Positions 36,903 to 50,656 of a stretch of DNA of 64,000 nt are shown in pieces. Every line of letters begins with the position of its first letter. Within the stretch, counting starts at the first letter, position 1. A program made the position numbers and the translations under genes. Source of the DNA: Streptomyces sp. NBC_01298. GTDB lineage: Bacteria; Actinomycetota; Actinomycetes; Streptomycetales; Streptomycetaceae. Under the pieces are notes generated by a model, which was not told the origin of the DNA, made no database searches, and saw nothing but the letters and a program-made list of their open reading frames with translations. The stretch covers positions 2,728,001 through 2,792,000 of the forward strand of contig NZ_CP108414.1 of assembly GCF_035978755.1 (NCBI RefSeq), given 5' to 3'.

Positions 36903-37056
36903 ACACAGGCGGTAGAACGCGGGGACGCGATCCTCGATCACCGCGCGGTCACTACCGGGGGTAACGGTCGGGCGCTGTGAAGAAGGTGTGGGGGGCCGAT
37001 GGCGGGAGCGTTTTCCCGCTGTCGGTCCCCCTTCCGCTGCCGTACGGTTTCTGCAG

Positions 37057-37953
37057 ATGAGTGAGACACCCCGCTCCCGGGAAATCGGGGGCGACACCAG
37101 TACCGGGCTTCCCCAGCGCCGCACTGGGCATGCGTTCGCGCACACTCTTCACCGATCGGACGGCCGCACGCCCCAAACCCCCCGGGGCGCCCGGCATCCC
37201 GATCCGGGCGGCCGCCCCGGAACCACCCCCCCTGTTCCGGGGCGGCCGGCCACTCTCCTCTCGGCGGGTTCCGCCGTCTCCGCGCTCTGCGCGGCGCTCT
37301 TCGCCCTGACCACCTGGCAGGTCCTCGTGTCCGGGCCCCTGCTGGTCCCGGACGCCGCCCTCAGCCGCTCGCTGGTGCGCACGGTCCCCGACGCGGTCAC
37401 CCAGCGCCTCTCCGATCTCGGCAACGTCCCGGTAGCAGTCCCCGTCCTGCTCCTCGCCGTCGTCCACGCCGCCCGGCGCGGCAACCGGCGCGCCGCGGCG
37501 GCCGCGGCCCTGGCCATGGCCCTGGTGCCGGCCCTGATCGTCCCGCTGAAGGAGTGGACCGGCCGTCCGGGCCCCCTGGAGCCCTGGGCCTCCGGCTACT
37601 ACCCCTCGGGCCACACGGCCACCGCTTGCGTGGCGTACACGGGCGCGGCCCTGCTCGTGCGCCCGTACACCCGGGGCCGCTGGCCCCTCCCCCTCGCGGC
37701 GGCCCTCACCGCCCTGACGGCGACGGGGCTGATCCTGCGCGGCTACCACTGGCCCCTGGACGTCCTGGCCAGCCTCCTGATGTGCACGCCGCTGCTGCTC
37801 GTGGTGCGGAGCGCGGCGGGGCGGGGACGCACGGCAGGGCCGGGGCGTGCGCGCCCCGGCCCTGCCGCGTCCGACGACCACTCGGCCGACGGCCAGCCGG
37901 CGGACGGTCAGCCGGCGGACGGTCAGCCGGCCGACGGTCAGCCGCCGAAGTAG
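37057..37953 (+). CDS. PAP2-family membrane phosphatase
   Basis: 298 aa. Five or six membrane helices. The three PAP2 motifs are present: KEWTGRP (KxxxxxxRP), YPSGHTA (PSGH) and LRGYHWPLDVLA (RxxxxxHxxxD, with Leu at the usual Ser). It probably dephosphorylates lipid phosphates or undecaprenyl diphosphate at the membrane. The first ~75 residues are Pro/Arg-rich and atypical, so a later start is possible. The C-terminus consists of four ADGQP units and overlaps the 3' end of the convergent chitinase gene. Confidence 0.85.
   Translation: MSETPRSREIGGDTSTGLPQRRTGHAFAHTLHRSDGRTPQTPRGARHPDPGGRPGTTPPVPGRPATLLSAGSAVSALCAALFALTTWQVLVSGPLLVPDAALSRSLVRTVPDAVTQRLSDLGNVPVAVPVLLLAVVHAARRGNRRAAAAAALAMALVPALIVPLKEWTGRPGPLEPWASGYYPSGHTATACVAYTGAALLVRPYTRGRWPLPLAAALTALTATGLILRGYHWPLDVLASLLMCTPLLLVVRSAAGRGRTAGPGRARPGPAASDDHSADGQPADGQPADGQPADGQPPK
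37885..37944. repeat. Four 15-bp units shared by PAP2 and chitinase 3' ends
   Basis: Units begin at 37885, 37900, 37915 and 37930 and encode ADGQP on the plus strand. On the minus strand the last unit holds the chitinase TGA, and the units at 37900 and 37915 repeat a TGA in that frame. Confidence 0.85.
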
Positions 37954-47995: not shown

Positions 47996-48571
47996 ATGGA
48001 GAAGATCGAGGAACTGATCGGGCAGGTCAGCCGGGGTGAGCGGGTGAAGTTCCTGCCGTTCTGGGGACACCGTCCGCGGCCGGACGGAACGCTCGGACCG
48101 AGCTGCCTCAGTCAGTGGTGGCCGTCCGAGTTCACCGTGGGTGACGTCCGGTACGCCACCGCCGAGCACTGGATGATGGCCGGAAAGGCGCGCCTGTTCG
48201 AGGATGCCGAGGCGGAGCGCGCGGCTCTGGAGGCGAGGACTCCGGCCGAGGCGAAGAAGGCCGGGCGGCTGGTGCGCGGCTTCGACGACGTGGTCTGGGA
48301 GCGGGAGCGGTTCGCGCTGGTGGTGGAGGGCAGCGTGCACAAGTTCGGCTCCGATCCCGCGCTGACCTCGTACCTGCTCTCGACCGGGAACCGCGTCCTG
48401 GTGGAGGCCAGCCCGATGGACCGGGTCTGGGGCGTGGGCCTGGCCCCCGACGACGAGCGCGCGCTGGACCCGGCGCGGTGGCGCGGCCTGAACCTGCTCG
48501 GCTTCGCGCTCATGGAGGCGCGGGAGCGGCTGGGGGCGGGGCTGCGGGAGGGGGCGCGGGAGGGGCTTTAA
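47996..48571 (+). CDS. NADAR-domain (DUF1768/YbiA-like) protein
   Basis: 191 aa. Strong NADAR signatures: FWGHRPRPDG, FTVGDVRYATAEHWMMAGKARLF (key AEHWMMAGKA), NRVLVEASPMDRVWGVGL and WRGLNLLGFALMEAR. Family members act on riboflavin-pathway N-glycosides or on ADP-ribose adducts, so hydrolysis of an N-glycosidic bond is expected. ATG 47996 is taken as the start because it gives normal family length; no Shine-Dalgarno is seen, so it may be leaderless. The two Y-like RNAs and the Ro-like gene follow on the same strand. Confidence 0.93.
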   Translation: MEKIEELIGQVSRGERVKFLPFWGHRPRPDGTLGPSCLSQWWPSEFTVGDVRYATAEHWMMAGKARLFEDAEAERAALEARTPAEAKKAGRLVRGFDDVVWERERFALVVEGSVHKFGSDPALTSYLLSTGNRVLVEASPMDRVWGVGLAPDDERALDPARWRGLNLLGFALMEARERLGAGLREGAREGL

Positions 48572-48587
48572 TCGCTCGCGGCCGGTA

Positions 48588-48771
48588 CGGGTGTGCGTCT
48601 AGCGTGATCCTTGTCCAGGTGCGCAGGTGAGACTTACTTCCACTCTTAATGGGGCAGCCGCGGGTTCGAGTCCCGTCATCGGCTTCGGGTCGGTGTAGCT
48701 CAGTTGGTAGAGCACCACGTGGTTTCGCCGACCTCGATCTCTGGACACCTCTTCACGCACCTCCCGGTGCG
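48588..48771 (+). ncRNA. Y-like RNA 1 with permuted tRNA-like module (YrlA-like)
   Basis: No tRNA is encoded, but its parts appear in permuted order. T arm: stem 48660-48664/48672-48676 with loop TTCGAGT. Then acceptor-like strands 48677-48683 and 48689-48695, able to form seven pairs (two wobbles) and closed by TTCGG. Then TA, and a D arm (48698-48701/48710-48713) with GG in its loop. The outer Y-type stem pairs GGG (48589-48591) and GTGCGT (48593-48598) with 48755-48765, then an internal loop, then GTG(A)TCC (48604-48610) with GGACAC (48743-48748). CGCACC-TCCC-GGTGCG (48756-48771) could be an alternative 3' hairpin, with a T-rich stretch near 48785. Ends are approximate. Confidence 0.82.
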
Positions 48772-48825
48772 CGGGCAGCGGCTCCTTCTTTTGCAAAGAA
48801 ACCCAGGCCGCAGCCACTTTGATCT

Positions 48826-48998
48826 CGGGAGGCACACGTACGGGAAGCCCGGTGCGCAGGCAACGGTTACTTCTCCGGATCAGCAGGTCGCGGGTTCGAG
48901 TCCCGCCCGGCTCCGGCCGGTAGCTCAGATGGTTAGAGCGGCTGACACAAGTCCGTCGTCGACTCCGATCTCGGGCCTCCCGTACGTCCCGCCTCCCC
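48826..48998 (+). ncRNA. Y-like RNA 2 with permuted tRNA-like module (YrlA-like)
   Basis: A paralogue of the first unit. Outer stem: GGGAGGC (48827-48833) with GCCTCCC (48991-48997), a 2/3-nt internal loop, and ten pairs ACGTACGGGA (48836-48845) with 48978-48987. Inside: T arm 48890-48894/48902-48906 with loop TTCGAGT, acceptor-like hairpin CCGGC-TCCG-GCCGG (48907-48920), TA, and D arm 48923-48926/48936-48939 with GG in its loop. It ends about 30 nt before the Ro-like ATG, so it may be cut from, or lie in, the leader of that mRNA. Ends are approximate. Confidence 0.85.
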
Positions 48999-49027
48999 CG
49001 GTTTCCACTGAATTCGGGGGGATTCAC

Positions 49028-50656
49028 ATGGCTCGTTTCAACCTGCTCCGCTCCAAGGCGGCGCCCACCGCGCCCGCTCCGTCCACCACGCCCACCTCAC
49101 CGGTCCGCTCCACCGGCCGCCGCGCAGCCAACGCGCACGGCAGCCCCGGCTTCGTGCGCGATCCGCGCTCCGAGCTGTTCCTGCTCGCCGTCGCCAACTT
49201 CGTGACGCAGCGGACCGCCTACGAGTCCGGCGAGGCCCGCGACGACCGCTACGCCGCGCTCGTGCGCACCCTCGCCGTGGAGGATCCCGCGTGGACCGCG
49301 GGCCTGCTCGCTTGGCTGCGGCAGGGCGGCAACATGCGGACGGCCTCGCTCGTCGGAGCCGCCGAGTACGTCAAGGCGCGGCTCGACGCCGGAGCGACCG
49401 ACGGGCCGTCGAACCGGCAGGTGGTGGACTCCGTACTGCTGCGCGCAGACGAGCCCGGCGAACTGCTCGCCTACTGGACGGCCGTGTACGGGCGCAGCGT
49501 GCCCAAGCCCGTCAAGCGCGGGATCGCCGACGCGGTGCGCCGCCTCTACTCCGGCAACTCCCTGCTGAAGTACGACACCGCCTCCCGGGGATACCGCTTC
49601 GGCGACGTCCTCAACCTGGTGCACGCCTCCCCCGACCCGGACAAGCCCTGGCAGGGCGAGCTGTTCCGGTACGCCCTCGACCGCCGGCACAGCCCGGAGA
49701 CCGCCGAGGCGCCGCCGGGCAACCGCACCCTGCGCGCGCACCGGGCCCTGATGGAGCTGCCCGTGGCGGAGCGCCGGGCCGTGGTCACCTCGGCGGACGG
49801 CGCCGAGCGGCTCGCCGCGGCGGGCATGACCTGGGAGGCACTGGCCGGCTGGCTGCAGGGGCCGATGGACGCGGCCGCCTGGGAGGCGGTCATCCCGTCC
49901 ATGGGCGTGATGGCGCTGCTGCGCAACCTGCGCAACTTCGACGAGGCCGGGGTCTCGGACGCGGTGGCCGAGCGGGTCGCGGCGAAGATCTCCGACCCGG
50001 AGACCGTCGCCCGGGCCCGGCAGTTCCCCTTCCGCTACCTGGCGGCCCACCGGCACGCGCCCTCGCTGCGCTGGGCGTACCCGCTGGAGCGGGCGCTGGG
50101 CCACTCCCTGGCCCTCGTACCGGCCCTGCCCGGGCGGACGCTGGTCCTGGTGGACCGGTCCGGGTCGATGTGGTCGCCGCTGTCGGACCGCTCGCAGCTC
50201 AACCGGGCCGACGCCGCGGCCGTCTTCGGGGCGGCGCTGGCGCTGCGCGCCGAGGACGCGGACCTGGTGCAGTTCGGCTCCACCAGCAAGGCGGTCGGCT
50301 TCCGGCGGGGCGAGTCGGTGCTGAAGGTGCTGGAGCGGTTCGAGGACCTCGGCGGCACCTACACGGCGGAGGCGGTGCGCGCGCACTACGCGGGGCACGA
50401 CCGGGTCCTGATCGTCACCGACGAGCAGGCCACCTTCGCCTACGGCGGCGATCCGGCGGCCCTGGTGCCGGACACGGTGCCGGTCTACACGTGGAACCTC
50501 GCCGGCCACCGGGTGGGCCACGCGCCCTCCGGGTCCGCGCACCGGCACACCTTCGGCGGGCTCACCGACGCGGCCTTCCGCATGGTGTCCCTGATCGAGG
50601 ACGGCCGGGACGCCAGGTGGCCCTGGGAGACCGGGCCGGAGGACGCGGACGCCTGA
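49028..50656 (+). CDS. rsr: TROVE-domain protein, Ro60 homologue (Rsr-like)
   Basis: 542 aa. A ring-forming RNA-binding protein that in other bacteria binds Y RNAs and works in RNA quality control and rRNA/tRNA processing with exonucleases such as PNPase. The TROVE domain has SPGFVRDPRSELFLLAVANFV at its start (key FVRDPRSELFLL), AWTAGLLAWLRQGGNMRTAS and LLAYWTAVYGRSVPKPVKRGI (key PKPVKRGIADAV). The C-terminal von Willebrand A domain has the MIDAS motif VLVDRSGSMW (Asp near residue 376) and DLVQFGST. ATG 49028 has GGGGGG 6 nt upstream; earlier in-frame codons fall inside the RNAs. Two Y-like RNAs lie directly upstream. Confidence 0.95.
   Translation: MARFNLLRSKAAPTAPAPSTTPTSPVRSTGRRAANAHGSPGFVRDPRSELFLLAVANFVTQRTAYESGEARDDRYAALVRTLAVEDPAWTAGLLAWLRQGGNMRTASLVGAAEYVKARLDAGATDGPSNRQVVDSVLLRADEPGELLAYWTAVYGRSVPKPVKRGIADAVRRLYSGNSLLKYDTASRGYRFGDVLNLVHASPDPDKPWQGELFRYALDRRHSPETAEAPPGNRTLRAHRALMELPVAERRAVVTSADGAERLAAAGMTWEALAGWLQGPMDAAAWEAVIPSMGVMALLRNLRNFDEAGVSDAVAERVAAKISDPETVARARQFPFRYLAAHRHAPSLRWAYPLERALGHSLALVPALPGRTLVLVDRSGSMWSPLSDRSQLNRADAAAVFGAALALRAEDADLVQFGSTSKAVGFRRGESVLKVLERFEDLGGTYTAEAVRAHYAGHDRVLIVTDEQATFAYGGDPAALVPDTVPVYTWNLAGHRVGHAPSGSAHRHTFGGLTDAAFRMVSLIEDGRDARWPWETGPEDADA

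Follow-up and report, generated by a model that had tools for sequence, protein, structure and literature searches.

A bacterial Ro/Y RNA locus of a known kind is very probably what lies in part of the 64,000-nt stretch of Streptomyces sp. NBC_01298 analyzed here (contig NZ_CP108414.1, positions 2,728,001 to 2,792,000; hereafter the window): a promoter, three Y-type RNAs (Y1, Ym, and Y2), and a gene for a Ro ring protein, with Y1 an unusually full tRNA mimic and the adjacent NADAR gene a resident neighbor. Compared with the described YrlA RNAs, the new element would be a variant Y RNA bearing a full permuted tRNA together with its anticodon arm. The NADAR gene (47996–48571), a spacer of 456 bp (48572–49027), and the ro gene (49028–50656) follow one another on the + strand; the original prediction had placed NADAR, structured RNAs, and Ro on one strand in this order and with this spacing, and both the coordinates and the domain matches agree.

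That prediction counted two tRNA-mimic units in the spacer. Both are real, as judged from Rfam YrlA matches, the scores of our own models, relatives, and covariation, but the RNAs number three, the small unit Ym having been overlooked. At a relaxed threshold, the Rfam YrlA family (RF02553) matches 48860–48965 (54.1 bits, E 1.7e-11) and 48653–48716 (32.8 bits, E 2.5e-5); at the gathering cut-off the Rfam scan returned nothing within the spacer, and ARAGORN found zero tRNAs in the window. The main sample comprised 80 Ro loci (labeled L), the best 80 of 290 relatives, all named Streptomyces, with one listed as [Kitasatospora] papulosa. The third unit was recognized from the upstream regions of 16 loci, the window's own included. 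Units from relatives were collected by a regular-expression search with a similarity filter of 0.90, and 23 Y1, 27 Ym, and 27 of 29 Y2 sequences were aligned, the Leu-like Y2 units of L077 and L088 being left out. Covariance models were built from the 23 Y1 (R1) and the 27 Ym sequences (R2), with the window's own Y1 and Ym among the builders. R1 places Y1, the distal tRNA-mimic RNA, at 48611–48748 (+ strand; 142.8 bits, own copy in the model) and Y2, the proximal one, at 48844–48979 (+ strand; 64.0 bits), and R2 places Ym, a small Y-like RNA with no tRNA module, between them at 48758–48834 (+ strand; 89.1 bits, own copy in the model).

Of the 80 Ro loci, 62 have Y1 with a score of at least 100 bits, 74 have Y2, and 75 have Ym. 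Ym is shortened to a bare-hairpin remnant in four loci (L074, L087, L093, and L117) and absent in L076, and L107 retains Ym alone among the three RNAs. Common to all three are end motifs within the closing stem, GGUGCG..AGG or close variants at the 5′ side and GAUCUC at the 3′ side; this shared end is the likely Ro-binding part. Folded as single sequences, Y1 is weak (z −1.03) and Y2 strong (z −4.41).

Upstream of Y1 lies a −10-like box, CTAGCGT (48599–48605, + strand). The 45-base stretch preceding the first Y RNA motif contains TANNNT in 78 of the 80 loci compared with 7 of 560 background windows, and CTANNNT in 67 of the 80 compared with 1 of 560; where Y1 is absent (L058 and L060), the box stays ahead of Ym. 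The Y cassette has its own candidate −10-like box; a transcription start at this place and co-transcription are presumptive.

Read 5′ to 3′, Y1 consists of an anticodon arm (5 bp, 7-nt loop), a 5-nt variable region, a T arm (5 bp), the 3′ half of the acceptor, a loop of 4–9 nt, the 5′ half of the acceptor (7 bp), the dinucleotide TA, and a D arm (4 bp), the whole being enclosed in the Y stem. In the window (all + strand), the anticodon arm occupies 48638–48654, with the loop CTCTTAA and an anticodon-like CTT at 48645–48647; the T arm occupies 48660–48676; and the 3′ acceptor half (48677–48683) pairs over a 5-nt loop with the 5′ half (48689–48695), which opens the segment 48689–48713 that also holds TA and the D arm (48698–48713). 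The arms were assigned from unit alignments and structure counts, the acceptor pairing from a rotation test and covariation, and the anticodon arm from its 5-bp stem, covariation, and position-wise conservation. Of 64 rotated units, 63 have an acceptor of 7 bp and one has an acceptor of 6 bp. For the complete structure of 40 pairs, 99.1% of the cells in the 23 aligned sequences pair, compared with 32–47% for slid versions of the same structure. Changes on both sides of a pair affect 8 pairs and 25 cells against a shuffled mean of 5.0, a value that 0 of 500 shuffles reach, and on four of the five covariation measures none of the 500 shuffles reaches the observed value. A wider set of 45 matches gives 139 such cells compared with 29.2 in shuffled alignments, although this alignment was fitted to the model and hence leans toward it. 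Within the anticodon stem itself, two pairs show changes on both sides (in 5 and 1 of the 23 sequences; in 7 and 4 of the 45 model-fitted matches). Rotated Y1 units are called tRNA by ARAGORN in 63 of 64 cases, compared with 8 of 64 when unrotated, 0 of 64 when the anticodon arm is deleted, and 60 of 64 when the arm is shuffled. Based on these sequence comparisons, the tRNA module of Y1 is a predicted complete, circularly permuted tRNA, anticodon arm included.

Several results weigh against this reading of the locus. A simple scan for a full sigma-70 pair or consensus promoter gave none. Both tRNA-mimic units score below the Rfam YrlA gathering score of 69, a score that none of 14 related loci reaches, and of the 80 loci 18 lack Y1 and 6 lack Y2. 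The fifth covariation measure for Y1, further pair types, is indistinct from chance (19 compared with 18.7 in shuffled alignments, 283 of 500 shuffles being as high). Three Y1 units (L053, L073, and L090) have lost the anticodon arm, a fourth (L055) is missing one base of its loop, and a Ro match was not found in 66 of the 150 genomes of our Streptomyces survey. The ARAGORN calls were rejected as proof of the anticodon arm because nearly all shuffled arms are still called tRNA; as ARAGORN does not test the arm, the case for it rests on covariation and position-wise conservation. Y1 and Y2 are nevertheless not chance matches, since they recur in 62 and 74 of the 80 related loci, 99.1% of the Y1 pair cells pair, and four of five covariation measures exceed all 500 shuffles.

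The origin of the permuted module was considered as well. In five loci (L159–L163), the junction of two tandem tRNA-Asn genes separated by a 4-nt gap scores about 60 bits against R1 positions 28–107 (28–105 in some); tandem tRNA-Asn(GUU) genes 4 to 5 nt apart were seen in Streptomyces at these loci and at G000:C1:6231121-6231271 (G denotes surveyed genomes). Conversion of a tandem tRNA pair to a permuted module could thus be a route of origin. Derivation of Y1 from the tRNA-Asn junction in particular was kept as an idea only, the mean identity of Y1 as a whole to tRNA-Asn (0.68) lying behind its identities to the Thr, Gly, His, and Arg tRNAs. Because this junction matches R1, many of the R1 matches found in 164 of the 296 genomes of our class-wide survey may be tRNA pairs rather than Y RNAs.

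The anticodon arm is intact in 58 of the 62 Y1 units. Position-wise change was counted by parsimony on a Ro protein tree of 56 loci, the number of Y1 loci that the search pattern read; the six that it missed are L046 and L054, with intact arms, and the four with altered arms. Because the pattern itself prescribed the letters at positions 27–29, 50, 52–56, and 58, these are uninformative. Zero changes were counted at positions 32, 33, 38, 41, 42, 46, and 48, compared with at least 17 at position 34, 17 at 35, 3 at 36, and 10 at 37, and the partners in the stem changed equally often (30/40, 6 and 6; 31/39, 2 and 2). Positions 44, 47, and 59 vary too (11, 15, and 9 changes); fast change thus extends beyond the anticodon, and neutral drift suffices to account for it. 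The triplet as a whole, most commonly CAT, CTT, GAT, or GTT, changed at least 27 times over the 56 tips compared with a shuffled mean of 34.8, which indicates that some family signal is kept. Arms of this type were also found near Ro in genomes of another family (L145–L148) and in viral contigs (L278, L263, and L287); one aligned set of matches showed none in the rows L150 and L153 or in the second L092 row, which is a Y2. This distribution suggests that the Y1 anticodon arm is older than Streptomyces or has traveled. No description of a Y RNA with an anticodon arm was found in the literature surveyed by title and start of abstract, an earlier account in the primary YrlA papers being possible.

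Such an arm invites the idea that Y1 acts as a decoy for, or sensor of, anticodon nucleases or further enzymes that act on the anticodon loop, the arm serving as bait and the triplet tracking changing attackers. The invariant C32, U33, and A38 beside the rapidly changing positions 34 and 35, as well as the occurrence of the arm in another family and in viral contigs, would suit this role, and the excerpted text of PMC7790460 considers it possible that YrlA competitively inhibits an anticodon nuclease. Change at positions 34 and 35 fits neutral drift of an exposed loop equally well, however, as the turnover at the non-anticodon positions 44 and 47 illustrates; the arm is lost or shortened in 4 of 62 units; the tRNA-like domain of YrlA is, according to the same excerpt, not a substrate of the nuclease studied there; and no nuclease is identified here, no search for one having been made. 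We therefore regard a decoy role as unlikely. Distinctly unlikely in our estimate is the broader proposal that actinobacterial and phage Ro loci harbor a class of Y RNA that presents a complete tRNA, anticodon arm included, as bait for anticodon-loop enzymes of either the nuclease or the modifying kind, in which a frozen framework, fast triplet turnover, and D-arm swaps in Y2 would mean that the tRNA impersonated keeps changing.

Y2, in which the T arm lies at 48890–48906 and the D arm at 48923–48939, has T, acceptor, and D arms, and the Y stem replaces the anticodon stem as in YrlA; 16 of its 38 predicted pairs show changes on both sides. Its D arm occurs in several types: among the 67 units first read, 47 are standard, 11 Leu-like, 7 initiator-Met-like, and 2 other. 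The four Leu-like units shown are 91% identical to the D region of tRNA-Leu(CAG), and the four Met-like units shown are 82–95% identical to initiator tRNA, L012 tying with tRNA-Asp at 82%. Six printed Leu-like units have an apparently longer stretch before the T arm, as in class II tRNAs. For the distribution of types on the Ro tree, 76 rows were used (52 standard, 18 Leu, and 6 Met-like), leaving out the six loci without Y2 and L081; L052, L067, and L097 were classed by hand, and two outgroups were set to standard untested. On this tree the Leu label requires 9 changes and the Met-like label requires 6; for both labels, well-supported branches force 5 or more of these. The clustering of the Met-like label does not exceed that expected by chance (500 of 500 shuffles are as low). 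The D-arm type has switched repeatedly, with which both recurrent replacement of the segment and exchange between strains are consistent. Relatives that illustrate the switching are L010, L012, L045, L023, L075, L094, and L117.

The ro gene (+ strand) encodes a protein of 542 aa for which the original identification as Ro60 (TROVE plus vWA) holds. PF05731 (TROVE) matches at 56.1 bits against a cut-off of 23, covering residues 281–341 only, and a search of NCBIfam with the protein gave zero matches. At the sequence level the protein also has a match in the PDB. An AlphaFold2 model (pLDDT 86.6, pTM 0.86) retrieved Ro/TROVE structures in all 13 Foldseek matches at E 0.001 or better; template modeling (TM) scores are 0.75–0.76 by query and 0.77–0.78 by target for the animal Ro entries 1yvp, 1yvr, and 2i91, and 0.58 by query and 0.62 by target for Deinococcus Rsr (2nvo). 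Residues D376, S378, and S380 of the vWA metal site (DxSxS, MIDAS) are invariant in 36 of 36 aligned sequences. Judged from the model, the overall Ro fold, a helical-repeat ring plus vWA, is predicted to be present.

In the Streptomyces survey, 84 of the 150 genomes have a Ro match, some of them (e.g., G066, G125, and G132) fragments. Some genomes have two Ro genes: in G039 and G134, one lies at the NADAR site and another, 72–73% identical, elsewhere. The single Ro of G038 is 73% identical and lies away from NADAR. Where the cassette lies away from NADAR (L058, L060, and L107), the upstream frame resembles, by eye, a PhoX-type phosphatase. Directly 5′ of the ro start codon is an imperfect inverted repeat, GAATTC-GGGG-GGATTC (49010–49025, + strand), which shows small variations across the 16 upstream regions and could form a ribosome-binding-site hairpin that hides or presents the site. 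Elsewhere in the window, Rfam recorded Scr5676 (Streptomyces RNA 5676) at 37055–37160 on the + strand (68.1 bits).

The NADAR gene (+ strand) matches PF08719 at 164.7 bits, far over the cut-off, and passes NCBIfam TIGR02464. Its residues E57, K64, and E137 align with the NADAR structure 8bau and, by our own mapping, would correspond to the catalytic residues named in the excerpted text of PMC11543638; a NADAR domain of the YbiA subfamily with its catalytic glutamates and lysine is thus predicted to be present. NADAR matches occur in 142 of the 150 Streptomyces genomes. Among the 82 with both genes, NADAR lies within about 1 kb of Ro in only 8 (G000, G074, G012, G054, G083, G042, G039, and G134), a comparison made by eye in which split assemblies could hide a few. 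Inspection of flanks of up to 6 kb at the 80 Ro loci found NADAR beside Ro in 19. In the 296 genomes of the class sample, 37 have TROVE, 68 NADAR, and 28 both, and the genes are adjacent in 2 of these 28 (G000 and G434, of the same genus).

The surroundings of NADAR were also compared in 15 regions without an adjacent Ro, picked by us from the 142 genomes. In 11 of them a transporter gene, aldehyde dehydrogenase, DUF4190, and adenosine deaminase are kept as in the window, one keeps DUF4190 and adenosine deaminase, and three keep none. As Ro-less regions retain these neighbors, the interval from NADAR to DUF4190 is most likely where the Y–Ro cassette came in. Ro genes at the NADAR site (20 rows) form one side of a single branch with support 100, marking one insertion, and across the 19 loci between 43 and 676 nt separate Y1 from the end of the NADAR match. 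NADAR is therefore judged to stand outside the module: probably a resident gene, next to which the cassette arrived on a single occasion.

The original reading of Y-like, tRNA-mimicking RNAs accompanied by Ro is supported. The original prediction had also joined NADAR to the Ro/Y pathway, and lack of conservation of NADAR beside ro in relatives had been named beforehand as telling against that link; this is what the neighborhood comparison found. In its full form, the proposal makes NADAR, the Y RNAs, and Ro a single RNA-repair module in which NADAR strips ADP-ribose from RNAs or tRNAs. The shared strand, the gap of 39 bases that separates Y1 from the NADAR stop codon, the retention of E57, K64, and E137, and the persistence of adjacency in a clade of 20 rows speak for it, as does the reversal of guanosine ADP-ribosylation by tested NADAR enzymes, reported in the excerpts of PMC11543638 and PMC11125620. 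NADAR as a module member was rejected on its distribution, the empty sites (12 of the 15 Ro-less regions keep NADAR neighbors), the variable spacing, the single-clade insertion, and the cassette's own −10-like box, which together leave a common repair module very improbable. A functional link special to the NADAR-site clade is conceivable but speculative, adjacency being the one observation in its favor. Of the literature found for NADAR together with Ro60, the excerpt of PMC7824862 places NADAR and TROVE in separate sections, and the remaining papers, to judge by their titles, give the word another meaning.

Permuted tRNA genes are processed into decoding tRNAs in some algae and archaea, and the ARAGORN calls on rotated Y1 would be expected of such a gene, but this explanation is extremely improbable for Y1, in which the acceptor halves are joined by a loop of 4–9 nt in 64 units, the module sits inside a covarying Y stem, and the triplet turns over on the tree while the body stays alike.

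The preferred reading, a Ro/Y RNA locus with a resident NADAR neighbor, aligns the cassette with several described systems. A 2014 study by Chen is reported to have identified, in each species, one or more tRNA-like Y RNAs in the vicinity of Ro. Like YrlA (RF02553; Salmonella, Mycobacterium, and others), Y1 and Y2 lie beside a Ro gene and have a long end stem and a permuted series of T arm, acceptor, and D arm. Y1 differs in its separate anticodon arm with a 7-nt loop, which is not in the Rfam consensus, the excerpted text of PMC8394870 naming D, T, and acceptor arms only; Y1 and Y2 further differ in scoring under the gathering cut-off, and the D arm of Y2 comes in three main tRNA types. The Salmonella rsr-yrlBA-rtcBA operon similarly clusters Ro with multiple Y RNAs (PMC7790460, excerpt), and by analogy Ym may correspond to a YrlB-like RNA. 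In the genome studied here, however, the RNAs precede ro, and the RtcB match lies about 1.27 Mb away, outside the cluster; the locus is thus distinct from the form linked to rtcBA (no search for RtcA was made). The Deinococcus radiodurans complex of Rsr, Y RNA, and PNPase (RYPER) likewise pairs a Ro-type protein with a Y RNA as presumed nuclease tether (excerpts of PMC8394870 and PMC7790460), but the fold match to Rsr is weaker than that to animal Ro, three RNAs are present here, two with tRNA modules, and a link to PNPase is putative.

Phages and plasmids of Streptomyces carry related Ro proteins as well, with Y-like RNAs upstream in viral contigs. At E 1e-5, 79 of 50,697 phage records and 29 of 72,556 plasmid records contain a match to Ro, and a further 26 matching loci come from viral contigs; identity to Ro is 44–54% in the 15 best phage records listed and 72–74% in four Streptomyces plasmids. 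R1 matches at 40 bits or more in 20 of the 26 viral loci, and both other families and viral contigs have full-length Y-like matches close to Ro. In L145–L149, L264, L276, L286, and L288, which are loci of other families and of some viral contigs, a single Ro gene is accompanied by at least three Y-like matches.

We infer that the common end of Y1, Ym, and Y2 would bind Ro, and that the most likely function of the particle is to gate Ro or to tether it for the handling of structured RNA, as described for the Deinococcus system, where the Y RNA tethers Rsr to PNPase (PMC7790460, excerpt). The permuted modules of Y1 and Y2 would be matured by tRNA-modifying enzymes, of which YrlA is a substrate (PMC8394870, excerpt), and would dock a tRNA-recognizing or tRNA-binding partner, with Ym acting as a plain Y RNA. 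Roles in tRNA decay and nuclease inhibition are among those considered for such modules in the excerpted PMC7790460; any role of the anticodon arm of Y1 is presumptive. The cassette itself was inserted once next to the resident NADAR gene.

For the biology of these loci, the tempting link between NADAR and Ro is weakened by their distribution. The losses and shortening of the arm in L053, L073, L090, and L055, together with the changes of tRNA type, offer natural variants ready for testing, and a natural Y RNA with an added anticodon arm would allow Y1, Y2, and Ym of one locus to be compared for binding or cleavage by anticodon enzymes.

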